NCBI GenBank assembly: GCA_016278295.1
Contig: JADQCC010000022.1
Span: forward strand, 1-40,038
Reading direction: 5' to 3'
Source: Roseovarius sp.
GTDB lineage: Bacteria; Pseudomonadota; Alphaproteobacteria; Rhodobacterales; Rhodobacteraceae
Length of the DNA: 40,038 nt
Shown: piece by piece, positions 3,804 to 39,807 of the stretch
Layout of the letters: each line of letters opens with the position of its first letter
Numbering within the stretch: position 1 is the stretch's first letter
The notes under the pieces: model-generated
Database searches by the model: none
Told to the model about the DNA's origin: nothing
What the model saw: only the letters and a program-made list of their open reading frames with translations
Program-made: the position numbers and the translations under genes

Positions 3804-5927
3804 ATGCGGGAGTTACTTGGAAAAACTGGCGCTTGGGTGATCGTGGCAGTATTCTGCGCGCCTCGTGCGATATTCGCAGACGATGCGCCAACAACGATCG
3901 AAACCGGCTACAACAGCTACGGCTATCCGGGCCTTATCGACATGCCGGTCGCCACAAGCAGACCCGACGGCGAACTGGGCTTCACCGTCAGCAGCTTCGC
4001 CGGGCAGACCCGCAATACGCTGACCTTTCAGATTCTGCCCCGCGTGTCGGGCAGTTTCCGCTATTCCGTGCTCGACAATGTGGCGAATGCGGGCCGCAGC
4101 ACACTGTACGACCGCAGCTTCTCGCTGCACTACCGTTTCGCCGATGAAACCGCTCTGCGCCCGGCTCTCGCGGTCGGGCTCAACGATTTTCTCGGCACCG
4201 GCATCTATTCGTCCGAATACCTCGTCGCCACCAAGACCCTGGGCGATTCGGTTCGGCTCACCGGCGGTATCGGCTGGGGCCGGCTGGGCGGGTCGGGTGG
4301 ATTCACCAATCCCCTCGGCGTGCTGGACGACCGGTTCAAGCGCCGGCCAGAGCGTGACTTCGGGCAGGGCGGCGATGTGGAAGCGGCGCAATTCTTCCGC
4401 GGCGACGCGGCGCTCTTTGGCGGCGTCGAATGGCAGGCGACCGACCGGCTGAAATTCACGGTCGAATACTCCTCCGACGCTTATCCAAACGAAGACCCAA
4501 GCGCATTGAGGCGCAAATCACAGCTGAACTTCGGGGCCACCTACGGCCTCGGGCCGATGACCGACCTGTCGGTCCGCTACCTCTACGGCAGCGAGCTGGG
4601 CGTGCAGATCAGCACCGCGCTCAATCCCAAATCCCCGCCCAACCATTCCGGGCGCGACCCCGCGCCGCCCCCGGTGCTGGCACGCGACGCCCCGTCGGTG
4701 GCCGCGCTCGGCTGGACCGGCGCAATCGAGCAGCGCGATGCGCTGCGCGGCGATCTCACGCGCGCACTCGCCTCGCAGGGTCTCGGGCTGCATGGCTTTT
4801 CACTGTCCGGCGGCACCGCCCGGATCGAGATCGAGAACGGCACCTACCTTCAGGAGGCACAGGCGGTCGGGCGCACCGCGCGGGTGCTGGCACGACGCCT
4901 GCCCGCGCATGTCGATGTGTTCGACATCACGCTTGTCGATGCGGGCCTTCCGGTTACACAGATCAGCCTCCGCCGCGGCGACATCGAGACGCTGGAGCAT
5001 GACCTCGATGGCGCGTGGAAGAGCTTTGCCAGGGCGCGGATTTCCTCGCCCGAGGGGCCGCCCGCCCCCGCACCGGAGCGCTACCCGCGCTTCGACTGGG
5101 ACATCTCGCCCTACCTGAGCCCCAGCCTTTTCGATCCCGACAATCCCCTGCGGGCCGATGCCGGGGCGCAGCTCGATGCGTCCTTTCAACCGATTGCGGG
5201 GTTTGAGGTCTCCGGCATTCTGCGCCAGAAAGTGGTGGGCAATCTCGACGACGCGACACGGCGCTCCAATTCGGTGCTGCCCCACGTCCGTAGCGATTTC
5301 GCGCTCTACGACCGGGAGGGGGAAACCGCCCTCACCCAGCTGACAGGCGCGTATTATTTCAGGCCGGGGCGCGATCTCTACGGTCGTGTGACCGTCGGAT
5401 ACTTTGAGCGGATGTTCGGCGGGCTGTCTTCGGAATTGCTGTGGAAACGCACCGACAGCCCCTTCGCGCTGGGGGCAGAGGTCAATTACGCCTGGCAGCG
5501 CGATTTCGACGGCGGGTTCGGCTTTCGCGACTACGAGGTGGCGACGGGCCACGTCTCGGCCTACTGGGACATGGGCAACGGCTTTCACGCGCAGGTCGAT
5601 GCCGGTCGCTACCTCGCCCGGGACTGGGGCGCGACATTCTCGCTCGATCGCGAATTCGGCAATGGCTGGCGGATCGGCGCCTTCGCGACGCTGACCGATG
5701 TCCCCTTCGACACCTTCGGCGAAGGGTCGTTCGACAAGGGCATTCGCATCACCATACCGATCCGGTGGCTGACCGGCGAGCCCAACAAGACCGCCTACAC
5801 CACCACGATCCGCCCGCTTCAGCGCGACGGCGGCGCGCGGCTCGATGTGCCGGGGCGGCTTTACGACCGGGTTCGCCCGCTACAGAAACCGGCGCTGAAG
5901 GATGGCTGGGGGAGGTTCTGGCGATGA
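3804..5927 (+). CDS. YjbH-like outer-membrane exopolysaccharide protein
   Basis: The 707-residue product has a signal peptide (cleavage near IFADD, residue 26) followed by a typical YjbH opening (GYNSYGYPGLIDMPVA) and alternating aromatic/polar strands that fit an outer-membrane beta-barrel. A central segment near 300-400 carries a small alpha/beta module, then a second barrel-like half runs to the C-terminus. YjbH proteins take part in secretion or modification of extracellular polysaccharide; the exact step is unknown. No Shine-Dalgarno sequence is visible before the ATG, and a GATAAT -10-like hexamer ends only eight bases upstream, so a leaderless message is possible. The stop overlaps the next gene by ATGA, so the two are coupled. 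Confidence 0.88.
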   Translation: MRELLGKTGAWVIVAVFCAPRAIFADDAPTTIETGYNSYGYPGLIDMPVATSRPDGELGFTVSSFAGQTRNTLTFQILPRVSGSFRYSVLDNVANAGRSTLYDRSFSLHYRFADETALRPALAVGLNDFLGTGIYSSEYLVATKTLGDSVRLTGGIGWGRLGGSGGFTNPLGVLDDRFKRRPERDFGQGGDVEAAQFFRGDAALFGGVEWQATDRLKFTVEYSSDAYPNEDPSALRRKSQLNFGATYGLGPMTDLSVRYLYGSELGVQISTALNPKSPPNHSGRDPAPPPVLARDAPSVAALGWTGAIEQRDALRGDLTRALASQGLGLHGFSLSGGTARIEIENGTYLQEAQAVGRTARVLARRLPAHVDVFDITLVDAGLPVTQISLRRGDIETLEHDLDGAWKSFARARISSPEGPPAPAPERYPRFDWDISPYLSPSLFDPDNPLRADAGAQLDASFQPIAGFEVSGILRQKVVGNLDDATRRSNSVLPHVRSDFALYDREGETALTQLTGAYYFRPGRDLYGRVTVGYFERMFGGLSSELLWKRTDSPFALGAEVNYAWQRDFDGGFGFRDYEVATGHVSAYWDMGNGFHAQVDAGRYLARDWGATFSLDREFGNGWRIGAFATLTDVPFDTFGEGSFDKGIRITIPIRWLTGEPNKTAYTTTIRPLQRDGGARLDVPGRLYDRVRPLQKPALKDGWGRFWR

Positions 5928-17947: not shown

Positions 17948-18217
17948 ATGCCCCGCGACCCCCTGCTGCGCGCCTGGGCCGTGCTGATCGGGCTCAGCCT
18001 CGGCTCGACCGCCTTGTCGCTCTGGCTCTGGCCGCCGGGCCTCACGGCGATCGCCGGGGTGTCCATTCTGACACTCGCATGGCTCAAGGCCCGGGTGATC
18101 CTCGCGCAATACCTCGGGCTGGCGCAGGCGCCATTCTGGCGGCGCGGGTTCGAGATCGCGCTCGCCCTGTTCTGCCTCGTCCTCCTCGGGCTCTACCTCG
18201 CGCCGGGCCTGGGCTAG
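17948..18217 (+). CDS. norF: NO reductase accessory small membrane protein
   Basis: The 89-residue product has three hydrophobic segments and includes LAWLKARVILAQYLGL, a stretch typical of the cytochrome oxidase subunit IV-like/NorF family. A GAGGTGA ribosome site spans the norE stop and precedes the ATG. It is the last gene of norCBQDEF. Its stop overlaps the stop of the convergent DUF4202 gene by four bases, leaving no room for a conventional terminator between the two transcripts. Confidence 0.88.
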   Translation: MPRDPLLRAWAVLIGLSLGSTALSLWLWPPGLTAIAGVSILTLAWLKARVILAQYLGLAQAPFWRRGFEIALALFCLVLLGLYLAPGLG

Positions 18218-18780
18218 GCTCGGGGCCGAAACGCCGCGGCGAATGTCTCGGGGAGATCGAACTCGTCCAGCACGCGCGCGCGCCCTTGCGCCGACATCTT
18301 GCGCGCCGTCTTGACGACGATCCTTTCGAGCTTGGCCGGGTCCTGCGTGGGCGCGAAGGGGGCGAAATACCACTTCAGGAAGGTGAAACAGATGACGTCT
18401 TCCAACGCCTGCACCTCCGGGTCGCGCTTGATCCCTTCCTTGCGGATCATGCAGCCCGCGCGCTCGGCATCGGCCCGGTCATAGCCCGCCTCCAGCATGA
18501 TCTCGCCCACGCGCACGGCATGATGTTTGGCAAGCTCGGTGCGCCATTCCAGGTACCCGGCACGCCCCTCAGGAAACGCCTGCCTTTTCATGATCCAGCG
18601 TTCGATATGCTGCCCCCGCGCAGCGATCTGCAACAGCTCCGAGGCATCGGGGAACAGCCGGGACAATTCCGCGCTCATCCTCTGGCCATAGAGCTGCGCG
18701 GCCGGTTGCCCCTCGGTCGTGTCGGGGTCGTGCGCGTTGGCCGCATCAATCGCGGCGAGGGCAATTTCGAGCCTGTTCAT
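18214..18780 (-). CDS. DUF4202-family protein coupled to the Dnr regulator
   Basis: The 188-residue soluble protein matches the DUF4202 family as I recognise it: an opening MNRLEIALAAIDAANAHDPD, a middle RWIMKRQAFPEGRAGYLEWR, and KHHAVRVGEIMLEAGY with a paired His that could bind metal or nucleotide. Its biochemical function is not established. The start is taken as the ATG at 18780, which overlaps the stop of the upstream regulator gene by ATGA; an earlier in-frame GTG-like start exists but would lie inside that gene. Coupling to a Dnr regulator inside a denitrification island suggests a job in NO response or cofactor supply, which is inference. Confidence 0.85.
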   Translation of the reverse strand: MNRLEIALAAIDAANAHDPDTTEGQPAAQLYGQRMSAELSRLFPDASELLQIAARGQHIERWIMKRQAFPEGRAGYLEWRTELAKHHAVRVGEIMLEAGYDRADAERAGCMIRKEGIKRDPEVQALEDVICFTFLKWYFAPFAPTQDPAKLERIVVKTARKMSAQGRARVLDEFDLPETFAAAFRPRA

Positions 18781-19484
18781 AATACCTTGCCCCATGCGTC
18801 TGCCGGATCTCTTTCGGCATAGTCATGCAGCGCCTCGATATCGTCAATGGTGGCGTTGTGGCGTGCGATATGCACTCCAACCGGTTTCAGCTTGGCAAAT
18901 GCCCGCGACAGGCTCTCGGGTTTCATTCCCAGCCGCCCGGCAATCAGCACCTTGTCATAGGGCAGCGTCACGACACAGGTCCCGGAATCGCGCGTGCAAA
19001 GATGTATCAGGAAATCCGCCACCCGCTGCGCGCCGGTCTGCGATTTGATCTGCTCGACCTGCCCGACAAGATCGTGCAGGTGCTGGAAGGTCGAGGCCAG
19101 AACGGCAATCGCCACTTCCGGTTCCCGATGCAGGATAGAGATGAAACGGCGCGCCGGAATCTGCATGAGAACACAATCCGTCACGGCTTCGGCCGACACC
19201 GGATAGGGCTGCATCCGAAACGCCACCGCCTCGCCAAAGCTGTGGCCCCGCGTAAACACGCTGACGACGGCCTCGCTGCCGTTGGGCGCGATACGGTAGA
19301 GCTTGACCCAGCCGTCAAGAACCACGTGGATCACGCTCGCATTCTCTCCCTGTAGGAAAACCGTTTCTCCCCGGGCGAATTCACGGATCGACGCATCGCT
19401 CAGCAATGCGCCGGTCACCTGCTCCGGCAGGTTGGCCAGCAGCAGCGATCTTTTCGCGATCTCCAGGCTCTCGGATTTCTTCAT
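18777..19484 (-). CDS. dnr: Crp/Fnr-family regulator, Dnr/NnrR type (NO-responsive)
   Basis: This 235-residue regulator has an N-terminal cyclic-nucleotide-like sensor domain (GETVFLQGENASVIHVVLDGWVK), a long dimer helix (HLHDLVGQVEQIK), and a C-terminal winged helix with recognition helix KPESLSRAF. The ExxSR in that helix is what FNR-class proteins use to read TTGA half-sites, matching the boxes ahead of norC, nirS and nosR. It lacks the N-terminal cysteine cluster of oxygen-sensing FNR, so it belongs to the heme/NO-sensing Dnr-NnrR group by exclusion. I chose the ATG at 19484; a TTG three codons earlier is an alternative. It follows nirI on the same strand after 151 bases. Confidence 0.9.
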   Translation of the reverse strand: MKKSESLEIAKRSLLLANLPEQVTGALLSDASIREFARGETVFLQGENASVIHVVLDGWVKLYRIAPNGSEAVVSVFTRGHSFGEAVAFRMQPYPVSAEAVTDCVLMQIPARRFISILHREPEVAIAVLASTFQHLHDLVGQVEQIKSQTGAQRVADFLIHLCTRDSGTCVVTLPYDKVLIAGRLGMKPESLSRAFAKLKPVGVHIARHNATIDDIEALHDYAERDPADAWGKVL

Positions 19485-19539
19485 GAGGATCAAACCACCG
19501 ACCAGAGCACGTTCTTCGCCCCACGTCTTAGCGCAATGG

Positions 19540-19635: not shown

Positions 19636-23545
<3,910 letters not shown>

Positions 23546-27886: not shown

Positions 27887-29103
27887 TGTTTCGCCTGACC
27901 GAATACATGCACCAACTGGTGACCCCCACCCCGGTGCGCCCAAGGCGTGGCGCGGTCGAGATCAGGCCGGTGGTGATCTGGAACCTGACCCGGCGCTGCA
28001 ACCTGAAATGCCGGCATTGCTACACGGTCTCTGCGAATGTGAATTTCCCCGGCGAGCTGACCCACGCGCAGGCCATGACAACACTGGACGATCTGGGCGA
28101 TTTCGGGATCCCCGCGCTGATCCTGTCGGGGGGCGAGCCGCTCGACAGGCGGGATCTGTTCGAGATCGCGCACGCCGCGCGCGACAAGGTGCGGATGTTG
28201 GCGTTATCGACCAACGGGACGCAGATCCATGACGAGACGGCGGATCGCGTGGCCGAGATCGGCTTTGACTATGTCGGCATTTCCATCGACGGGATCGGTA
28301 AAACCAATGACTGGTTTCGCGGCGTCCCGGGCGCCTTTGCCGAGGCGCTGCGCGGCGTGCGGGCCTGCAAGGCGCGCGGCATCAAGGTGGGGCTTCGGTT
28401 CACCCTGACGCGGGACAATGCCGCGCAATTGCCCGACCTTCTGAAGCTCTGCGATGACGAGGGGGTGGACAAGTTCTACCTCTCGCACCTCGTCTATGCC
28501 GGGCGTGGTGACAAGAACCGGGGCGAGGACGCGGTGCACGCCCATACCCGTGCCGCCCTCGACGCGTTGATCGACCGCGCCTGGGCGGCTGCGTTGGAGG
28601 GGGCACCGCTCGATATCGTGACTGGCAACAACGATGCCGACGCCGTCTACCTGCTGCGCTGGGCCGAGCGACACTTCACCCCCGAGCGCGTGGCGCATCT
28701 GCAGGCCCATCTCGAGGCATGGGGCGGCAATTCCTCCGGTCTCGGCGTGGCCAATATCGACACGCTGGGGCGTGTGCATCCCGATACCTACTGGTCGGAT
28801 TACACCGTGGGGAACGTGAAAACCGCACGCTTCTCCGATCTGTGGACCGGCGACGACCCGATGCTTGCGCAACTGCGCCGCCGTCCGCGCCCGCTCCAGG
28901 GGCGCTGCGGCGCCTGCGCCCATCAGTCGGTCTGCGGCGGCAATACCCGTATCCGCGCACTGCAACTGACCGGCGATCCCTGGGCCGAGGACCCGGCCTG
29001 TTACCTTGATGACGACGAGATCGGCGTGCGCGATGCGGGCGACCGCCTGACCGTCACCCCCTTCAGAGGCAAGCGACATGATCCGGCTCATCGTTTCCAC
29101 TAG
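27886..29103 (+). CDS. nirJ: Radical SAM heme d1 synthase NirJ
   Basis: NirJ removes propionate side chains from the decarboxylated siroheme precursor, leaving the keto groups of heme d1. The 405-residue protein has the radical SAM cluster motif CNLKCRHC (Cys38, Cys42, Cys45), the SAM-binding LSGGEPL and STNGT strands, and a C-terminal SPASM-like cysteine region ([12 protein letters not shown] and a later CYL) for an auxiliary iron-sulfur cluster. A strong GAAGGAGG precedes the ATG. The 3' end overlaps nirN by 26 bases. Confidence 0.96.
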
Positions 29104-30625
29104 CGCGTTGACCCTCGCCGCCGGCATGGCACTGGCAGAACCGGCAGAGACCTACAACGCCCGTTGCGCCGCGTGCCACGGGGCGGATCGGCTGGGCGGC
29201 CTCGGGCCCGCGCTCATCCCCGAGACACTGGGGCGGATGCGCGGTCCCGACCTGACCCAGGTGATCTCGAGCGGGCGCGCGGCCTCGCAGATGCCCGGCT
29301 TTGCCGGTCAGATCGGCGAGGGCGAGATCGCAGCGCTGGCCGACTGGCTGCGCACGCCACTGGCCGAGGTGCCGGAATGGGGCCCGGCCGAGGTCGCGGC
29401 GACGCGCTGGCTCGACCCAAAGTACACGCCCGCCGAGACCCCGGTATTCGCCGCCGACCCCCTCAACATCACGCTGGTGGTGGAGACGGGCGACCATCAT
29501 GTCAGCGTTCTGGATGGGGACACGTTCGAGGTCCTCGACCGGTTCAAGACGCCCTTTGCCGTTCATGGCGGCCCAAAATTTTCGCCCGACGGGCGCTACG
29601 TTTTCATCATGTCGCGCGATGGCTGGGTGCAGAAATACGATATCTGGTCGCTGCATCAGGTGGGCCGCGTGCGCGCGGGCCTCAACAGCCGCAACATCGC
29701 GATGAGCCGGGATGGCAAGTGGCTCGCGGTGGCCAATTACCTGCCGATGACGCTGACGATCCTCGATACCGACGACCTGAGCGTGAAAAAGGTGATGGCC
29801 GTCACGGGCAAGGACGGCACGGCGAGCCGCGTTTCGGCGGTCTATCAGGCACCGCAGCGCGACAGCTTCATCCTCGCGCTCAAGGATGTGGCGGAAATCT
29901 GGGAGGTCGCCACCGACCCCGAGGCCGAGCCGGTCTACGAGGGCTTTGTCCACAGCCGCCGCAAGGACATGATCGAGGCGCTGCCCTCGTCTCAGGGTCT
30001 TTTCGCGCGGCGGCGGATCGAGGTTTCCGCGCCGCTGGACGATTTCTTTTTCACCGACGATTACCGCGCCCTGATCGGGGCCGCGCGCGAGACGGGGCGC
30101 GGGGTGGTTGTGAACCTCAATGTTGGCCGCGAGATCGCCGAATTGCCCCTGCCCGGCATGCCGCACCTGGGATCGGGTATCTCGTGGGAGCGGAATGGCC
30201 GCCGGGTGATGGCGACGCCGCACCTCAAGGAGGCCAAGCTGTCGGTGATCGACACCGAAAGCTGGACCGTGACGGATACGATCGAGACGGCGGGGCCCGG
30301 CTTCTTCCTGCGCAGCCACGAGAACACGCGCTATTTCTGGGCCGACGTGTTCTTTGGCCCCAACCGCGACGCGATCCATGTGATCGACAAGCAAAGCCTG
30401 GAAATCGTCAAGACCCTGCGTCCGGTTCCCGGCGCGACCGTGGCCCATACCGAGTTCACCCGCGACGGCAAATATGCGCTTGTCTCGGTCTGGGAGGAGG
30501 ACGGCGCGGTGATCGTCTACGACGCCGAGACGCTGGAAGAGGTCAAACGGTTGCCGATGCGCAAACCCTCGGGGAAATACAATGTCTTCAACAAGATCAC
30601 CTTCTCCGAAGGCACCAGCCATTAG
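29078..30625 (+). CDS. nirN: Dihydro-heme d1 dehydrogenase NirN (cd1-like cytochrome)
   Basis: NirN performs the last step of heme d1 making, oxidising a propionate to an acrylate, and hands the cofactor to NirS. The 515-residue precursor has a Sec signal (cleavage near ALAEP, residue 20), one heme c site CAACH (Cys30, Cys33, His34) and a d1-type propeller resembling NirS ([41 protein letters not shown] at the end). It overlaps nirJ by 26 bases, so it is translated from the same message. A small membrane-protein gene follows. Confidence 0.96.
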
Positions 30626-30921: not shown

Positions 30922-31299
30922 TCAGTCGAACGTCGCGAGGTAGGCGATCACGTCGGCGATCTCTGCATCCTTGCGCAGGCCGGGAAAGGTCATCTTGGTG
31001 CCCTTGGCATATTTGCGCGGGCTGGCGAGGAAGGCGGCCAGTTCCTCCTCGGTCCAGACCGCATCTGCGGCGGCCATCTCTTGTAACACGCCGGAATACT
31101 TGAATCCCTCCACTGATGCGACCGGTCGGCCCACGACGCCGTTAAGCACGGGACCGACGCGGTTCTTGGCGCCCTCTCCGACCATGTGACAGGCCTTGCA
31201 CTTTCGGAATACCTTTTCGCCGGTCTCCGGGTCGCCCTCGGCCCATGCCGGGGCCGCCAGGACAAGCGCGAGAATCGCGGTCACGAGTGATGTCTTCAT
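30922..31299 (-). CDS. Periplasmic class I c-type cytochrome (c550/c2-like)
   Basis: This 125-residue precursor has a Sec signal (cleavage near AWAEG, residue 20), a heme site CKACH (Cys34, Cys37, His38) and a Met ligand in GTKMTFPG (about 103). GPVLNGVVGRPVA and the closing ADVIAYLATFD mark it as a soluble cytochrome c2/c550 type. A good ribosome site (AAAGGAAA) precedes the ATG, and it follows nosX on the same strand after 30 bases, so it is likely co-transcribed. Soluble cytochromes of this type feed electrons to NosZ, NirS and NorC in Paracoccus; the partner here is inferred. Confidence 0.9.
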   Translation of the reverse strand: MKTSLVTAILALVLAAPAWAEGDPETGEKVFRKCKACHMVGEGAKNRVGPVLNGVVGRPVASVEGFKYSGVLQEMAAADAVWTEEELAAFLASPRKYAKGTKMTFPGLRKDAEIADVIAYLATFD

Positions 31300-31329: not shown

Positions 31330-32217
31330 TCAGGTGAACGCCTCGATCCGCACGCCTGCGAACCGGGCCACGGCGCGCCGCGCCGCATCCGCATCCAGCA
31401 GGCAAAGCGCGGTCGACAGGCCATCGGCAATAGATGCCCGGCGGGCGGAAACGCTGACCAGCGCATTGCGCGGGGCGCGGCCCGAGGGGTCGATGATATG
31501 GCCGCGCCCGCCCGGCATGACCGTACCCATCGGCGCAGAGGTGGCCAATGCGCGGTCGCGCAGCGTCACGCGCTCCACCACCCGGCGATCCGGGTCGGCG
31601 ATGCCCGCGCGCCACGTCGCGCCGTCCGCGCGCCGTCCGCGCGCCACGACCTCGCCGATATCCACCAGCACGTCGCCAAAACCGCGCGCCGCCAAAAGAT
31701 CGGCGATCCGGTCGGTGACATAGCCCTGCGCGATGCCGTTGAGGGTGAGCGCCATGCCGGGGCGGTCGAACCGCACGGTTCCGGCGTCGAACCGCACGGA
31801 TCGCCAGCCTACGCGCGACTGCGCCGCAGCCTCTTCCCGGCCCGCCGCGCGCGCCTGCCAGAGCGGCTGCACCGACGGATCGAACGCGCCGCCGGTCGCG
31901 TCATGGATCGCGCCCGCCAATGCGAGCACCTCCAGCAGCTCGGGCGGGGGCGCGTCGAGACGACCATGCGCATTGAGCCGCACCAGTGCGCTGTCGGCGC
32001 GGTAGAGGCTGAATATCCGCTCCAACCGCCGCAACTCGGCCTCCAGCGCGGCAAACACCGGGCGCGCCTCCAGCGGCGTGACACCCGCCAGGACCATCGT
32101 GGCCGGTGCCCCCAGTGCGACGCCATTCCAGCGTGCGCTCTGGCCTGCGAGGGCGGCGGAGGGCGCGGCCAGCGCGGCCGCGGAAATGGTCAGGAAGCGG
32201 CGGCGGGTAAGGGTCAT
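31330..32217 (-). CDS. nosX: NosX, ApbE-type FAD:protein FMN transferase
   Basis: NosX attaches FMN to a Thr of NosR (and probably supports NirI in species lacking nirX), which keeps nitrous oxide reduction running. The 295-residue precursor has a twin-arginine-type signal (RRRFLT) and the ApbE family stretches LERIFSLYRADSALVRLNA, ATGGAFDPSVQPLW, ALTLNGIAQGYVTD and DIGEV. The C-terminal SIADGLSTAL region is also conserved in ApbE proteins. It overlaps nosL by ATGA. No nirX was seen in the nir cluster, so this could be the only flavin transferase for both NosR and NirI. Confidence 0.94.
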   Translation of the reverse strand: MTLTRRRFLTISAAALAAPSAALAGQSARWNGVALGAPATMVLAGVTPLEARPVFAALEAELRRLERIFSLYRADSALVRLNAHGRLDAPPPELLEVLALAGAIHDATGGAFDPSVQPLWQARAAGREEAAAQSRVGWRSVRFDAGTVRFDRPGMALTLNGIAQGYVTDRIADLLAARGFGDVLVDIGEVVARGRRADGATWRAGIADPDRRVVERVTLRDRALATSAPMGTVMPGGRGHIIDPSGRAPRNALVSVSARRASIADGLSTALCLLDADAARRAVARFAGVRIEAFT

Positions 32218-32723
32218 GACGGAGGGTCCTCCAGCGAAATATCGACAGGGGCAAGCACGGTCTCGGGCGGGATGGCGTCGAGCGTCATCACCTCGCCACC
32301 CTTCTCGGCGGCAAAGGCGCGCGCCGCTGCGGCATCCGAAAACGGCACGATCTCGGGCGCACCCATGCCCCCGGTAACGTCCGCGCCCACCACGAAATGC
32401 GCGGCGGTGGCGTCGGTCCAGTTGTCAGGTCCGGGCGCGTCCCAGCTCGGGGCGCGGCCCATATCGCTGACATAAACGGCGGCAATCCCGGCGTCGCGCT
32501 CCGGTCCCTTGATATAGGCCAGCGCGTCGCGCACCTGGTCGAAAAAGATCGGATCGGGTAGCCCGGCAAGGTGAACCTGCGCCTTGGGGCCGGGTTGTCG
32601 ATCGACCTGCATCCGGCACAAGTAGCCCCGCGCCGCATCGGTCATGGTGACGGGGTCGGGCGCGCGCGCCTCCTCTTCCCGGCAGGCGGCAAGCAGGAGC
32701 GCGGCAAGCAGGAAACGTTTCAT
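32214..32723 (-). CDS. nosL: Copper chaperone lipoprotein NosL
   Basis: NosL is an outer- or inner-membrane-anchored periplasmic lipoprotein that binds Cu(I) and delivers it to NosD/NosFY for the copper centres of NosZ. The 169-residue precursor has a lipobox LLAAC (Cys14) and the NosL copper motif Cys-x-Met (YLCRMQV) followed by GPKAQVHL, and the C-terminal FSDAAAARAFAAEKGGEV strand-helix typical of the family. Overlaps of ATGA join it to nosY and nosX. Confidence 0.94.
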   Translation of the reverse strand: MKRFLLAALLLAACREEEARAPDPVTMTDAARGYLCRMQVDRQPGPKAQVHLAGLPDPIFFDQVRDALAYIKGPERDAGIAAVYVSDMGRAPSWDAPGPDNWTDATAAHFVVGADVTGGMGAPEIVPFSDAAAARAFAAEKGGEVMTLDAIPPETVLAPVDISLEDPPS

Positions 32724-33544
32724 GGCTCAATCCTCGCAAAAACGGCACGGGCCAGCAAAAGCGCCAGCACGGGCCAGATAAAAAGCGACAACGGCGCGGC
32801 CCAGCCAGGCAGCGCGCCGCCCGCCCCTGCCATGCCCGAGACGAGCGCAACCTCCTGCGCCGCCGAGACATTCCAGAGACGAAACGCATCCGCCGGGTTG
32901 AGCGCCAGAAGCCACGGAAAGACGTATGTGGTAAACATCCCGCCGCCATCCATCACCAGCGCGCCGAGCAATCCCAGATCGTACAGCACCACCAGCACCA
33001 GCCACAACGCCACCGCCAGCCCCGCCGCCCCCGCACCGCTGCCCGACAGCGCCGACGCGACATAGCCCAGCGCGAGGAAACAGGCCCCCAGCAGGATCGC
33101 CGTGGCGATGAGCCGGGCGAGCGCAAACGCGCTCTCTGCCCCCGCGCCCCCGGCAAGCCAGGCCGCCACCCCGGCAGAGCCGAGGCCGAGCGCGATGGCG
33201 ATGGCCAGAACCGCAAGATGCGCCGCGAACTTGCCCAGGAGCATCTCGCCACGGCTGAGCGGGTAGGTGAGCGTGAGCCCCAGCGTGCCACGATCCGCCT
33301 CTCCCGCGATGGCGTCGAAGGCGATCATCAGCGCGAGGAAGGGCGCGAGGTATACCGCGAGCGTCGTCATCGAAGCGACCGAGACCGTCAGCAAATCCAC
33401 CCCGAGCGATCCGGTGGGCGCCGATCCGGCAAAGGTCAGCGCCAGCGCGAAGAGCATCATCAGCACCGTGGCCGACGCCAGCCAGCGGTTGCGCGTCTGG
33501 ATGCGGAATTCGGTTGCCGCGATGGCCATGATTCGGGTGATCAT
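32720..33544 (-). CDS. nosY: Membrane permease NosY of the NosDFY complex
   Basis: NosY is the membrane subunit of the ABC-type NosDFY machine that works on copper or sulfur supply for NosZ. The 274-residue protein has six hydrophobic segments and the ABC-2-type stretches TEFRIQTRNRWL at the start and LTLTYPLSRGEMLLGKF in the first cytoplasmic loop. I chose the ATG at 33544, overlapping the nosF stop by ATGA, rather than an open frame six codons earlier. The last residues overlap nosL by ATGA. Confidence 0.93.
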   Translation of the reverse strand: MITRIMAIAATEFRIQTRNRWLASATVLMMLFALALTFAGSAPTGSLGVDLLTVSVASMTTLAVYLAPFLALMIAFDAIAGEADRGTLGLTLTYPLSRGEMLLGKFAAHLAVLAIAIALGLGSAGVAAWLAGGAGAESAFALARLIATAILLGACFLALGYVASALSGSGAGAAGLAVALWLVLVVLYDLGLLGALVMDGGGMFTTYVFPWLLALNPADAFRLWNVSAAQEVALVSGMAGAGGALPGWAAPLSLFIWPVLALLLARAVFARIEP

Positions 33545-34446
33545 TGCCTGTTCTCCCCGCAATAGTGTCGATAAAGGTCCTCAAGACTCGGCGGCACCAT
33601 CTCGACATCGCGCACCGCTTCGCCCAGCCCCGAGATACGCGCGAGCTGCGCCATCTTCTGCTCGGTCGTGCAGTGCAGCTCGACGGCGCGGCCATTGATG
33701 CGCCGCCCGCCAAGCTCGGCCTGCACCGCCTCTGCCGCGCCCTCGCGCGCCGTGAGGCGGATGCGCGTGGGAAGGGCTGCGGCGCGCGCGAGATTGCCGA
33801 GGCTGTCATCCGCCACCAGCCGTCCGCGGGCCATGATCGCGATACGGTCGGTGCGCGCCTCCAGCTCGGTGAGCGCATGGCTCGCGATCAGGAGCGCGGT
33901 GCCGTTCGCCGCCATCTCGTCGATCACGGAATACAGGTCGTGGCGCGCGATCGGGTCAAGCCCGCTCGTCGGTTCGTCCAAGAGCGCCACACGACGGCGA
34001 CCGAGAAGCGCCTGCGCCAGCCCCAGCCGCTGCCGCATCCCCTTGGAATATGTCCCGATGCGGCCATCGGCGGCAGGGGCGAGCCCGACCCGTTCCAGCA
34101 GCGGCGCGACGGTTTTCGGATGCTCGCCCGCCAGCCGCGCGAACATGGTCAGTTGCTCGCGCCCTGTCAGTGACTTGTGAAACGCCACCTGCTCGGGCAG
34201 GTAGGCGGTGGCGGCGCGCGCCGCCGCGCTGCCGGGGCCGTGCCCGGCCACGCGAATGCTGCCCGAACCGGGCCGGATCAGCCCGAGGATCAGCTTGATG
34301 AGCGTGGATTTGCCGGCGCCGTTATGCCCCAAAAGCGCCACCCGCTCGCCCGGTGCCACGTCGAGCGTGATATCATCGAGCACCTGCGTGCGCCCGAAAC
34401 TCTTGTCCAGCCCCGCGATGGCCAGCGCCGTGTCACGATCCGTCAT
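33541..34446 (-). CDS. nosF: ABC ATPase NosF
   Basis: NosF powers the NosDFY complex. The 301-residue protein has a full nucleotide-binding domain: Walker A GHNGAGKST, Q-loop YLPEQVAF, signature YSKGMRQR, Walker B VALLDEPTSGLD and switch His in IASHALTE. A C-terminal extension of about 80 residues follows, as usual for NosF. The start overlaps nosD by 14 bases and the stop overlaps nosY by ATGA, so translation of the set is linked. Confidence 0.96.
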   Translation of the reverse strand: MTDRDTALAIAGLDKSFGRTQVLDDITLDVAPGERVALLGHNGAGKSTLIKLILGLIRPGSGSIRVAGHGPGSAAARAATAYLPEQVAFHKSLTGREQLTMFARLAGEHPKTVAPLLERVGLAPAADGRIGTYSKGMRQRLGLAQALLGRRRVALLDEPTSGLDPIARHDLYSVIDEMAANGTALLIASHALTELEARTDRIAIMARGRLVADDSLGNLARAAALPTRIRLTAREGAAEAVQAELGGRRINGRAVELHCTTEQKMAQLARISGLGEAVRDVEMVPPSLEDLYRHYCGENRQ

Positions 34447-35713
34447 CTGTCACCTCCCAGTCCGGGATGGAAATTTCCACCGGCCGCATCAGCGGCGCAC
34501 GGTCCACCACGCCCCCCGGCAACAGCGCCGGAAACGCCGATTGCGCCCATTTCACCAGTTGCACGGCCGGCGCGCCCAATAGCAACTTGGCCGCCGGCTG
34601 CGTCCACAGGATGTGATCCATGCTGTCATTGGGCCGGTAGGGCGCGTCGGCGATGCCGTCGCCGTCGAGGTCATAGCCGGCGAAATCGGACCAGTAATTG
34701 CCGCGCCCGCCTTCGCTCCAGTCCACCCAGGTGGAGCCCACGTATTTTACCTGCGTGCGGTTGCCGACAAAGGCGTTGCCGGTAATCCTGTTTCGCTCGG
34801 AACCGGCGGTGAAATGCACGCCGATGTCGCAGCGTTCGAACCGGTTGCCGGTGATCTCGTTTTTGTGGGCGTTGTAGATGAACAGGCATTTGTTGCCGCC
34901 GTTCAACACCAGATTGCCCCGCACCTCGGAACCGTTGGTATAATTGAGCATCATCCCGTGTTCGGCATCGTTCACCGAGACGTTGTCGATGATCTTCACA
35001 CCGCGCGAGTACATAACGGCAAAACCAAGGTCGTTGCCGATGGAGAGGTTGTCGCGCACCTCCGAGCCGTTGGCATACATGTAATGCACGGCAAAGCGCA
35101 GGTCGCGAAACCGGTTGCCGACAAAGCGGTTGGCCCGCGAGGTGTTGACGAAGATGCCGTCGCGGCCCCAGCGGATATCGTTGCCCACCACGTCCGAGCC
35201 CGGCGCGTTCCAGACGTAGACACCGTTGCCACGCTCGTTCATCCGCCGGTCCTGCCGCCCCTCGATCACATTGCCGGAGACAAGCGCATCCCGCGCACCG
35301 TGGATGTCCACGCCGTAGAGGTTGCCGGTCAGGCGGTTGCCGCTGACGCGCGCGCGCACCGCGCCCTCGAGCAGGCGGATGCCGCTGTCGATCCCCTCGT
35401 GATCGCTGCCCGATCCGGTGATGGTGCAGCCGGTTATGGCCACGTCGGGCGCGGTTACGGTCAGGGTGGAGCCTTGCCCGCCGCCGTCGATCCGCGCGCC
35501 CGGCGCGCAATCGAGCGTCAGCGGTTTGTCAATCTCCATGCCGCCCCGATGGCGGCCGGGGCCAAGGCGGAGGGTCTCCCCCGCCCCGGCGTTTTCAATG
35601 GCCTCTGCCAGCGCCGTACCGCCCGCCGGGATCTCGCGATCCGCGGCCGGGGCCATCGACGACCACGCGACCCAGATCGACCAGATCAGAAGCGGCAGCA
35701 GCAGGCGCAGCAT
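34433..35713 (-). CDS. nosD: Periplasmic beta-helix protein NosD
   Basis: NosD forms the periplasmic part of NosDFY and receives copper from NosL for CuZ assembly in NosZ. The 426-residue precursor has a hydrophobic signal (cleavage near PAADRE) and a long right-handed beta-helix with repeating N-x-I/V turns (GNDIRWGRDGIFVNTSRANRF, YNAHKNEITGNRFERCD). It begins three bases after the nosZ stop. A large open frame on the opposite strand over nosD and nosZ is a shadow. Confidence 0.95.
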   Translation of the reverse strand: MLRLLLPLLIWSIWVAWSSMAPAADREIPAGGTALAEAIENAGAGETLRLGPGRHRGGMEIDKPLTLDCAPGARIDGGGQGSTLTVTAPDVAITGCTITGSGSDHEGIDSGIRLLEGAVRARVSGNRLTGNLYGVDIHGARDALVSGNVIEGRQDRRMNERGNGVYVWNAPGSDVVGNDIRWGRDGIFVNTSRANRFVGNRFRDLRFAVHYMYANGSEVRDNLSIGNDLGFAVMYSRGVKIIDNVSVNDAEHGMMLNYTNGSEVRGNLVLNGGNKCLFIYNAHKNEITGNRFERCDIGVHFTAGSERNRITGNAFVGNRTQVKYVGSTWVDWSEGGRGNYWSDFAGYDLDGDGIADAPYRPNDSMDHILWTQPAAKLLLGAPAVQLVKWAQSAFPALLPGGVVDRAPLMRPVEISIPDWEVTDDGS

Positions 35714-35716
35714 GGT

Positions 35717-37624
35717 TCACGCCTCCCGCGGCTCGACCAGCATCCGGCCGCGCATTTCCATGTGCAGCGCGTGGCAGAACCACTGGCAGTAGAACCAGTG
35801 CACGCCCGGCCGGTCGGCGGTGAAGGTGACCGAGGCGGTGGCCTGCGGCCCGATCTCCATCGCCACCCCGTGGTTCGACAGGGTAAAGCCATGAGTCACG
35901 TCATCGATATCGTCGAGATTGGTGATATAGACCGTCACCTCGTCGCCCTGCCGCACGGTAAACTTCTCCATCGAGAAGGTCGGCGCCATCGACCACATAT
36001 AGACCCGCACCTTGTTGCCGTCGCGGATCGGCTCTTCTGCCCCGTCCTCCAGCACCACACCATCGGCCTCGGCCTGTTTGCGGGCCGCCTCCCACATCGG
36101 ATCGTTGCGGTCCCAGACGTTCACCGGGTTGACGACGTCGCGGCGCACGATGATGCAGTCATGCGGCTCGGCAAAGGTCGGGCCGTCATGAACCACCGGC
36201 ATATCGTCTTGCGTGATGTCCAGAAGCTGCTCGTTCTCGGGCTTGAGCGGGCCGACGTTGATGAACCGATCCTTGGAGAATTTATTCAGCGAAATCAGCC
36301 ACTTGCCATCTGCATCCTTGGTTTCGCCCATCGACGTGTGGTTGTGGCCGGGCTGATACATCACGTCGGTCTTGTGCAGGATCGGGTCCACGTCCTCGCC
36401 GGCATAGGCGCGCACGGCCTTGTCGAGATTCCATTTCACGATCTGGCTGTCGAGGAACAGCGTGGTGTAGCAGTTGCCCTTGCCATCGAACGCGGTGTGC
36501 AGCGGCCCGAGACCAAGCTGCGGCTCTGCCACGATACAGGAGCGTTCATCGGCATTGTCGGTAAAGAGCGCATCGACCTTGGTCACGTCGATCACCGAGC
36601 AGGTCGGCGACAGCTTGCCGTTGAGCACCACGTGCTTGCCATCCGGCGCGGTGTTGCAGCCGTGCGGGCTGTTGGGGATGGGCACATAGCGGGTATAGTT
36701 CTTGTTGCGCTCCTTGCGCCCGTCGATGACCTTGACGCCGTTCAGTTCCTGATAGTCGCCCGCCGCTATGCCCTTCTCGATCTCCTTGAGATCGAAGATC
36801 ACGACATGGTCCATCTCGTTCGCCGTCATCTCGGCGAGGTTCATCCCCATTTCCGAGTTGTAAGAGGTCGAGAAGGCGTATTTGCCCTGATAATCGGCGT
36901 CGCAATTGTCGAGGTTGCCCGACACCATCACCTGCCAGGCAATCTCCATCGTGTCGCCGTCGATGGCGGTGAAGAAGGTGACGTATTTATCGGGCTCATC
37001 GAGGATCTTGCCGTCGTTGACGATCGGTGCCTCGTGTTCGCCGTTGGCGAAGACATAGCCGGTGCGCGGGTATTTCTGCGGACGCAGCCCGTGGATGGCC
37101 TGCGCGTTCGGGATCTCGACGATCTTGTCACATTTCATCACGTCGCAGCGTATCCGCCCCACGCGGGTGTTGGCCTTGTCGTTCACGAACAGGTAGCGCC
37201 CGTCATAGGTGCCGTCGGTGAACGACATGTGCGGGTGGTGCAGGTCGCCGTTGTCGTAGGTCTTCATCCCACGCTTGGCGAGGAATTCCCTGGTCTCGGG
37301 CAGCAGCCCCTCGGTCAGCACCTTGAGGCTTTCGTTGGTCTGGCCCCAGCCGGTGGCCGAGCAGCGGTTGAACACCGGCACGCGCATCAGTTCGCGCATC
37401 GACGGAAAGCCGAGGATGCGCAATTCGCCGGTCTGGCCCGAGGACCAGAAGCCGTAATACTCGTCCAGCTCGCCGGGGGCGAGATTGACCTTGCCCGCCG
37501 CCTGCGCCATCGGCGCATTGGCGAACAGGCCCGCACCGCCGGTGGTGACCGCGAGCGCGCCGGTTGCGGTGGCCCCCATCATGCCCCGCCGGCTCAGTTT
37601 CATCTGTGTTTTGTCATCAGACAT
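35717..37624 (-). CDS. nosZ: Nitrous oxide reductase, clade I, Tat-exported
   Basis: NosZ reduces N2O to N2 in the periplasm. The 635-residue precursor has a twin-arginine signal (LSRRGMMGA, residues 10-18), marking clade I. CuZ histidines are in DLHHPH (129, 130, 132), [23 protein letters not shown] and EPHDC. The CuA site is [12 protein letters not shown] near the C-terminus (Cys613, Cys617, His621, Met624). Total length and motif order match the family. The ATG at 37624 is preceded by AAAGGAG and shares a base with the nosR TAA (TAATG), so coupling is likely. Confidence 0.98.
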
Positions 37625-39807
37625 TAGTGGGTCTCCTTTCCCGCTGTCTTGGGGCTGACGAGGCGCTCCAGCGCGCCTCCATCGGCCTCCTGCGCCGCGC
37701 GGTCCTTCGCGCGCCGTTTCAGTTGCCGGATAATCACCGGGCATTTCGCGTCGGACTGATAAAGCACCTGGCAGTGCAGGCAGTTGACGCATTCGTTGGG
37801 GTTGATCTCGCCCGTGGGGTGGATCGCCTGCACCGGGCACTCATGGGCGCAGGTCTGGCACGGGCTGCCGCATTCGCGGTAGCGTTTGAGCCAGTCAAAC
37901 ATCCGCATCCGCGCCGGGATCGCCAGCGCCGCGCCCAGCGGGCAGAGATAGCGGCAGTAGAACCGCTCGACGAACAACCCGATCACCAGAAGCACCACGG
38001 CAAAGACCACGAACGGCCAGTCGCGCACGAACTTGAGGATGATCGCGGTCTTGAACGGCTCGACCTCGGCCAGTTGCTCTGCCATCGGGATAGAGGCGAG
38101 CGAGACGCCGAACAGACCGAGAAAGATCATGTACTTCACCGGCCAGAGCCGCTCGTGCAGACCCCAGGGCAGCGTCCATTGCGGCACCTTCAGCAGGCGG
38201 GCGACCCGATTGGTCAGCTCTTGCAGCGCGCCGAACGGGCACAGCCAGCCACAATAGGCCCCCCGCCCCCAGAAAATGAGCGCCGCGGCCACCGCGAACC
38301 ACTGGATGAACACCAGCGGATCCATCAAAAACGCGTCCCAGGTAAAGCCCGAGCGCAGCGATCCCGCCAGCGCCATCAGGTTCACGACCGACAGTTGCGC
38401 ATTGGCATACCAGCCGAGGAACACCAGCGTCACGGTAAGAAACGACATGCGAAACCACAGGTAGGCGCGCGGATGGGCCGTGATCTGCATCTGGAAGAAG
38501 AACGCGCCGGTAAGCACCGTCAGCATCACCGCCAGCACCACGATTTCGGGCGTCTTGTCGCGCCAGATGCGCTGCCACAGCGCGGTCTTGGCGGCGGCCT
38601 CCTCGTCGGGGGCGTTGATCTGCGTCGCGGGCGCCAGCGGCGCGAGGTAGCGCTCGGGCAGGCTGTAGCCGAGGTCGAAGGTGACATAGCTCTTTTCCAC
38701 CGCGCCCACGGCGCGCTGCACCAGCAGTTGCAGGCGCCACGGCCTGGCCGGGTCAAAGCCGCTGTCGGCGGGGATGCGAAAGAGGTCGAGCTCGGTGAAA
38801 CTCGGCGCGCCATTCGCCGCGATCTCGCCCAGCCGCCGGTGATCGCGGTCACGAAAGCGTACCGAGCGATCCCCCTGGATAAGCTGGATGCGGTCAAAGA
38901 TGCCGCCGCGCACATACCCCGACCCCTTGAAGGAATAGCGCCCGCGCCCGGCGACGAGAATGGCGTGATCCCCCTCGTTCAGCCAGCCTTGCAGGTTGGC
39001 GTATTCGTTCTCGCCCAGCAGGCTCCGCCCGATGGTGGGCACGCTGACCAAGGCGGCGCGCATGTCGATAAAGGTGGCCTCGTCCGGGGCTTTCTCGGGC
39101 CGCGCGGCGGCACGGTCGTCGCCGCTCTCGGCAAAGGCGCGATTGACCTGTCCCACGTCCAGCGTCAGCCCCCGCACCGATCCGTCACCGGCCAGCGCCT
39201 GCCAGTCCTCGACCGTGCCCTCGCCGGGCTTCAGCTCGCGCGCGGGCCCCGCCTGCGCCACCGGCGACAGGCCCCCCAGCCCCAGCGCCCGCGCCACCTT
39301 GAGCCCGCCGCGCACGAGGCTGTCGTCGATCACCATCACCGTGACCGTCGCACCCGAGATGATGTCGAGATCGTGCGCCGTGCCCGATGCGGCAGCCTCG
39401 GCCTTGAGGTCGAGCCCGGCATAGCCGCCGATCACGCCGCGCATCTTGGATTCGGGGATGCCGACGAGCACGATCGGCTCGGAATGTTCGACCAGCGCCG
39501 CGCCGGTCACGACCGCATCATCGTCGATCGCGGCGACGACGTGGATTGGCTTGCCCGAATAGCCGGTGGTGCCCGCGAAATCCGATGTAAGGAAGGCCCA
39601 CGCCACCGTCTCGCCGTTCCGCAATACCGGGGCCACGGGAAGATCCCCGCGCAGCGCACCAAAGCCGTCGGCCCCGTCGACCAGCGTGGCGGGGTCGAGA
39701 TCGGGCAGAAAGCGGCCCAACTGCGCCCCCTCCTGCGCCTGCGCCGCCATAGCGGACAGGGCAAGACCGATGGCCAGGACAAGACGAGAGATGAGATGCG
39801 CGACCAT
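37624..39807 (-). CDS. nosR: NosR, membrane flavoprotein/iron-sulfur electron donor for NosZ
   Basis: NosR keeps nosZ expressed and its product active, probably by passing electrons from the quinol pool to the CuZ site. The 727-residue protein has a signal peptide (AMAAQAQE, about 25), a periplasmic FMN domain with the flavinylation motif SGAT (residues 151-154), about six membrane segments, two CxxxCP motifs ([12 protein letters not shown] and [12 protein letters not shown]) and a cytoplasmic 2x[4Fe-4S] domain ([13 protein letters not shown] and CVNCLHC...CP). Its FMN is installed by NosX. A Dnr-type box precedes it. Confidence 0.96.

Follow-up and report, generated by a model that had tools for sequence, protein, structure and literature searches.

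A single ApbE-type gene at the junction of the nos and nir clusters of a Roseovarius genome, with NosR and NirI as candidate flavin acceptors

The closest described systems are those of Pseudomonas stutzeri and Paracoccus denitrificans, for which the comparisons made here draw on published work (PMC7660919, PMC3541799, PMC12052999, PMC5928378, PMC11334425, PMC8238504). In P. stutzeri, ApbE attaches FMN to NosR (Zhang 2017, as cited therein), and is encoded outside the nos cluster. P. denitrificans possesses two ApbE-family proteins, NosX and NirX, that are tied to the nos and nir clusters, together with a third ApbE that has been predicted to be cytoplasmic, and in strain DSM 413 an ApbE gene stands directly 3′ of nirI (locus L182), whose product carries the motif SRAT. 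Overlapping roles have been reported for NirX and NosX (Saunders 2000, as cited; Bergaust 2012), and a preliminary description of the locus treated below relied on this overlap; however, a later deletion study found that nosX alone is essential for N2O reduction and that nirX is no substitute, so that the overlap is disputed. Furthermore, an eLife survey of 2021 described NapH-like flavinylation systems and already reported flavinylation clusters with nirS, its main text naming NirI 0 times (PMC8238504).

The stretch analysed here, called the window throughout, comprises 40,038 nucleotides of a Roseovarius sp. assembly (GCA_016278295.1, contig JADQCC010000022.1). An intact open frame occupies exactly 31330-32217 on the minus strand, a strand assignment that goes beyond the preliminary description, as do the SRAT in place of SGAT in NirI and the commonness of the single-ApbE layout. 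The 295 aa product, NosX, is an ApbE-type FAD:protein FMN transferase according to its Pfam match (PF02424, E 4.9e-49; score 167.7 bits, cut-off 25.6). Its residues S227, H240, and D265 align with Ser241, His257, and Asp285 of V. cholerae ApbE, whose catalytic roles are taken from a review, and S227 and D265 are near-invariant across the ApbE alignment. With these residues in place, NosX is predicted to be active as an FMN transferase, and the twin-arginine stretch RRRFL near its N-terminus suggests export by the Tat pathway. Chance or artefact as the source of the gene was ruled out by its clear frame, its place in the operon, and its conservation.

nosX closes a run in the order nosR-Z-D-F-Y-L-X, encoded on the minus strand. 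nosR (37624..39807) encodes an FMN_bind domain with DIISGATVT in a NapH-like iron-sulphur membrane protein. It is followed by what we take to be nosZ (35717..37624, from its position in nosRZDFYLX, the start being assumed at a Tat-like MSDD...RRG), nosD (34433..35713, from position and family features), the ABC ATPase gene nosF (33541..34446), and the membrane protein gene nosY (32720..33562). nosL (32214..32723, PF05573) then directly precedes nosX, the two frames sharing four bases at the nosX start. From the opposite side the nir cluster converges on nosX: on the plus strand, presumably, nirS (21791..23545, start assumed) is followed by nirE, nirF, nirD/L, nirG, nirH, and nirJ, reaching up to 29103, and by nirN (29078..30625), and a small cytochrome c gene (30922..31299, minus strand) adjoins nosX. 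The gene for the NosR paralogue, nirI, bounds the nir cluster on its far side and diverges from nirS; its minus-strand frame is listed as 19636..21861, with the real start probably near 21675, and the acceptor site of its product reads DIISRATVS. The window holds no ApbE gene 3′ of nirI; after a gap of 142 bases stands a CRP/FNR-type regulator gene, called nnr here (18777..19493, minus strand), at the place where Paracoccus-type clusters carry nirX. Whereas Paracoccus has one ApbE gene per cluster and a third besides, the window has one, at the junction, and it belongs to a clade distinct from that of the nirI-adjacent genes.

A six-frame PF02424 search over the whole assembly (3.18 Mb, 325 contigs, 88.82% complete, with about 11% missing) returned a single match, nosX. 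As a control, the same search of P. denitrificans DSM 413 returned three ApbE genes, the number also given in the literature. The preliminary description had named NosX as the sole ApbE for two flavoprotein paralogues and proposed a search for nirX/apbE elsewhere in the genome; within the assembled contigs this search bears the claim out, and the absence of further ApbE genes beyond the assembled sequence is probable. A PF04205 search over the assembly gave NosR (E 7.7e-7), NirI (E 0.0012), and one further match (E 0.41) that was taken as chance, leaving NosR and NirI as the only credible FMN_bind proteins. The assembled sequence thus contains one enzyme and two candidate substrates.

As a periplasmic ApbE-type FMN transferase, NosX would take FAD and attach FMN to the threonine of the NosR periplasmic domain, as suggested by analogy with the flavinylation of NosR by ApbE in other species, and flavinylated NosR would pass electrons towards N2O reductase. 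NosX probably does likewise to NirI, in which case one enzyme would serve both membrane flavoproteins, accepting SGAT in NosR and presumably SRAT in NirI. We favor the reading that one NosX serves both NosR and NirI, with a probability of roughly 0.6. The preliminary description had reached the same sharing by noting that the nir cluster lacked a nirX; the comparison with relatives favors it and makes it likely, although the SRAT of NirI and the doubtful need of this protein for flavin weaken the NirI half. NosR needs flavin, and how it works has a bearing on whether the gas released by a denitrifier is N2O or N2; should the same enzyme act on NirI as well, a single modification step would link the respiration of nitrite with that of N2O.

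How common a single ApbE is was assessed in two sets of relatives. In a family sample of 394 genomes, a protein search at E 1e-190 or better, by which fragments are missed, found NirI in 32 genomes, all 32 of which have ApbE; partial NirI-like matches in two further genomes (G022 and G100) fell under this threshold. NosR proper accompanies NirI in 23 of the 32 and is absent from nine. ApbE genes were classed by tree, place, and score, nine of those called generic being placed by the tree and the rest only by a PF02424 score of ~219 bits or more. On this classification, 11 of the 23 genomes with both paralogues carry one NosX/NirX-type gene (G000, G044, G106, G125, G250, G255, G267, G288, G338, G346, and G389), another 11 carry two, and one (G119) is unclear where its contigs end. 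In G338 the only ApbE gene is split by a frameshift (L168, about 4570-5410), either an error or a pseudogene. Within a genus sample of 60 genomes, NirI was found in 14, plus one broken copy (G404); NosR accompanies it in 13, with a single NosX/NirX-type gene in 10 and two or more in the remaining three (G409, G452, and G426). The broken copy belongs to a genome 76% complete in which nirI and the neighbouring nor genes lie in several pieces (L331) and ApbE gave no match. Taking both samples together and counting the window once, one NosX/NirX-type gene is present in 20/35 genomes with NirI and NosR, two or more in 14/35, and 1/35 is unclear, some of the single-ApbE genomes being incomplete (G450 73%, G445 81%, and the window genome 89%).

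Three genomes that are 99-100% complete (G389, G416, and G435) have one ApbE, and Roseovarius salinarum N53 (G395) has one in all, located between NosR and NirI in the same layout as in the window. The one-ApbE layout is common and a fairly ordinary arrangement of known parts, in which the duties of NirX and NosX are apparently carried by one gene in many relatives; a loss of nirX peculiar to the window organism was ruled out by the recurrence of the layout in genus and family. It is very improbable that a further ApbE, generic or nirX-type, is encoded in the missing sequence and takes on part of the task. The completeness of 88.82% gives room for one, and among the 13 genus members possessing both paralogues a generic ApbE (by score), which might contribute, occurs elsewhere in five and a second NosX/NirX-type gene in three, but R. 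salinarum N53 and the three nearly complete genomes just named each manage with one, and the chance that the missing tenth contains another is small.

The descent of the window gene was followed in an ApbE tree that omits the split G338 gene, the G119 fragments, the G426 C32 and C128 fragments, the distant L197 (<200 residues), eight of the 10 named nirI-adjacent rows, and all generic rows. In this tree a single clade (99/93) unites 14 nirI-adjacent ApbE genes. Another group, of 22 rows (89/96), comprises most of the copies travelling with one kind of nos cluster; eight distant NirX also fall here, as do the copies next to nirI in G143, G301, and G130. The window gene falls into a third clade, a mixture of 30 rows (88/94) made up of nos/nir junction copies, nir-end copies without nos, and copies after nosL, whereas the nos copies of G131 (C184), G409 (X1), G435, and others lie in another clade. 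Within the mixed clade, a subgroup of 10 (99/95) unites the window gene with those of R. salinarum, G450, G131, G422, G412, G403, G426, and G445 and the second tandem copy of G409; a smaller tree had placed G131 as its sister (99/92), which with more rows pairs with G450. The window gene accordingly belongs to no nos-only clade, nor is it a NirX of the Paracoccus type, being neither directly 3′ of nirI nor in the nirI-adjacent clade.

Several relatives of this subgroup show what can become of the junction. In G131 all that is left of the nos genes next to nir is a decayed-looking nosL, whose N-terminal part has no match and for which a matching stretch occurs in a different frame; the ApbE beside it is intact and compares with the window gene at dN 0.26 and dS 0.95 (dN/dS about 0.27). 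The nos cluster of this genome is found on contig C19, and contig C184 starts with a second ApbE, presumably the nosX of that cluster. G426 has an ApbE copy after a piece of nosL and its nos cluster on another contig, and G409 has two tandem copies after nosL, one of each kind. Given these three layouts, ApbE has stayed close to nir in genomes in which NosR had an enzyme to itself. Among other genomes with both NirI and NosR, G435 has only the nos-side ApbE left, with NirI on another contig, whereas in G416 the only ApbE stands at nir, with no copy following nosL. By descent, then, the window gene is not simply a nos gene; its lineage is common to the two clusters, occupies their junction, and may remain with one or the other. 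The occurrence of this lineage at nir clusters without nos, as well as its staying after the loss of nos, supports service to NirI. The absence of nirX from the nir cluster, as stated in the preliminary description, holds in that no ApbE stands beside nirI; it is partly a matter of naming, given that the same lineage is also found at the same nir end without nos. A NosR tree, made quickly and containing two long rows (one a fragment), splits the nos clusters broadly like the ApbE tree; G110 is a misfit in that its NosR groups with one kind of nos while the ApbE on its nos side groups with the other kind, and the positions of G070 and G131 lack resolution.

With regard to the acceptors, NosR combines the motif DIISGAT with an FMN_bind score of 26.7 bits (cut-off 22), and searched by sequence against solved structures it gave no match at E 0.01. 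The window NirI reads DIISRAT, in which Arg replaces Gly and the rest of D-x-x-[S/T]-G-A-[S/T] is kept, so that the strict motif is absent. At the Gly position, the 32 NirI of the family have Arg in 30, His in one (G130), and Gly in one (G267), while Gly is kept in 23/23 NosR; the first Asp is replaced in 5/32 NirI and 7/23 NosR, and the acceptor Thr/Ser is kept in 32/32 NirI, as Ser once (G301). An alignment of 34 of 80 named loci, the other 46 being covered by a regular-expression scan only, revealed Arg in all 21 NirI of a close group that includes P. denitrificans and Aurantimonas marina, and Gly in all 13 more distant ones. A literature search, with subscription papers mostly outside its reach, found no paper describing the SRAT variant in NirI, and neither SRAT nor TKAT fits the [S/T]GA[S/T]-like motif given in PMC8238504. 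The comparison suggests that motif searches requiring SGA[ST] would miss many NirI.

The fold of NirI was considered separately from its motif. Against FMN_bind the window NirI stays under the Pfam cut-off (E 0.012), as do the NirI of G389, G052, G254, G299, and P. denitrificans, and this search returned no NirI match in G143 and G301; over the cut-off are the NirI of seven of 15 genomes, in G111 only with its neighbours in frame. The structure of the NirI periplasmic domain is predicted well (pLDDT 87.6). RnfG chains account for each of the top five PDB matches (E 7e-5 to 9e-3, with moderate TM scores of 0.46-0.57), the next standing at E 0.3. The model thus indicates that NirI has the FMN_bind fold; the idea that NirI is not of the flavin fold, raised by the Pfam miss, was ruled out by the model, the RnfG matches, and the seven orthologues over the cut-off.

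It could still be that NosX modifies NosR alone and that the NirI of this clade, having exchanged the motif Gly for Arg, lacks covalent FMN and works without it. The near-uniform Arg in the family and the close group, set against Gly in the distant NirI, would agree with such a change, as would the finding, given in a review, that Gly to Ala in the acceptor motif lowered flavinylation to about 50% in another substrate. However, Thr/Ser, Ala, and the fold are all kept in NirI, and the SRAT clade retains ApbE directly 3′ of nirI in 14 of the 32 family genomes, seven of them without NosR. Indeed, all nine family genomes with NirI and without NosR have a NosX/NirX-type ApbE, directly 3′ of nirI in these seven and beside a cytochrome c gene on another contig in two; completeness is at least 99% in six of these genomes, and the absence of NosR is less sure in G133 (90%), G329 (76%), and G359 (77%). 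In Litoreibacter arenae, which has no NosR, one ApbE stands at the nir cluster and NirI is the sole FMN_bind match.

A third NosR-like paralogue adds to this picture. It is present in 11 of the 32 NirI genomes (loci L118, L134-L137, L140-L142, L147, and L171), similar to NosR at about 30-34%, and at the one locus examined it adjoins a PedF cytochrome and a PQQ alcohol-dehydrogenase transport protein. Its flavin site reads TKAT in 9/9 readable rows, and the Lys of this protein goes together with an adjacent ApbE in nine of the 11 genomes, the others being G106, where the contig ends, and G130. This, too, speaks against a flavin-free NirI, which we regard as unlikely, and we infer from the sequences that a basic residue at the Gly position would be tolerated. 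A more general form of the shared-enzyme reading is that the NirI of Rhodobacteraceae and the NosR-like protein of PQQ alcohol-dehydrogenase clusters use a basic-residue motif ([SA]RAT, TKAT) and mostly have a dedicated ApbE, and that the window enzyme would have dual specificity for Gly and Arg motifs, one gene acting as nosX plus nirX; to this we tentatively give nearly even odds. A search for residues that distinguish ApbE enzymes of Arg/Lys-motif users from those of Gly-motif users, with ~270 columns scanned for acidic and for basic residues, yielded five columns past loose thresholds, which were regarded as noise; the most suggestive, residue 128, is acidic in 75-78% of two basic-motif groups and in 11-18% of two Gly groups.

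The experiment proposed in the preliminary description, nirS activity in a nosX mutant, has in effect been done in P. denitrificans, whose NirI is of the SRAT type. A nirI mutant of this organism loses nir expression; a nirX nosX double mutant lost N2O reduction and still grew by denitrification to N2O (both as reported), and because it still reduced nitrite, nir expression in that strain did not depend on any flavin that NirI may carry. By analogy NirI may act in nir expression without need for flavin, an outcome that also agrees with a flavin-free NirI. As reservations on this reading, the nosX lesion was an insertion and the third, predicted cytoplasmic ApbE was present. It is possible, if somewhat doubtful, that both proteins are flavinylated and NosR alone needs its flavin, that of NirI being dispensable for nir expression and mattering in some other condition. 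The phenotype of the double mutant and the ApbE genes retained at nir clusters without NosR are in keeping with this, but the persistence of ApbE next to nirI over long times points to a benefit of the modification, and the two reservations on the mutant apply here as well.

For the reading in which one NosX serves both proteins, the layout offers a usable test of which acceptors the enzyme takes, and R. salinarum, L. arenae, G131, G409, G416, and G435 are natural test cases. What seems worth keeping is a lineage found with either cluster and a non-standard acceptor motif in NirI.

Some minor observations concern the neighbouring genes. Aurantimonas marina (L179), which lies outside the family, has an SRAT-type NirI that is 63% identical, with an adjacent ApbE; this NirI gene was perhaps acquired by transfer. 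Between nirE and nirF no cytochrome-like match was found in the window, and a weak one occurs there at six other loci. Among the 19 loci with ApbE at the nirN end, a small cytochrome c gene stands beside ApbE at 17, the exceptions being L. arenae and R. salinarum. Finally, the CRP/FNR regulator gene of the window adjoins a gene for a DUF4202 protein (18214-18795), and this pairing recurs in many relatives.
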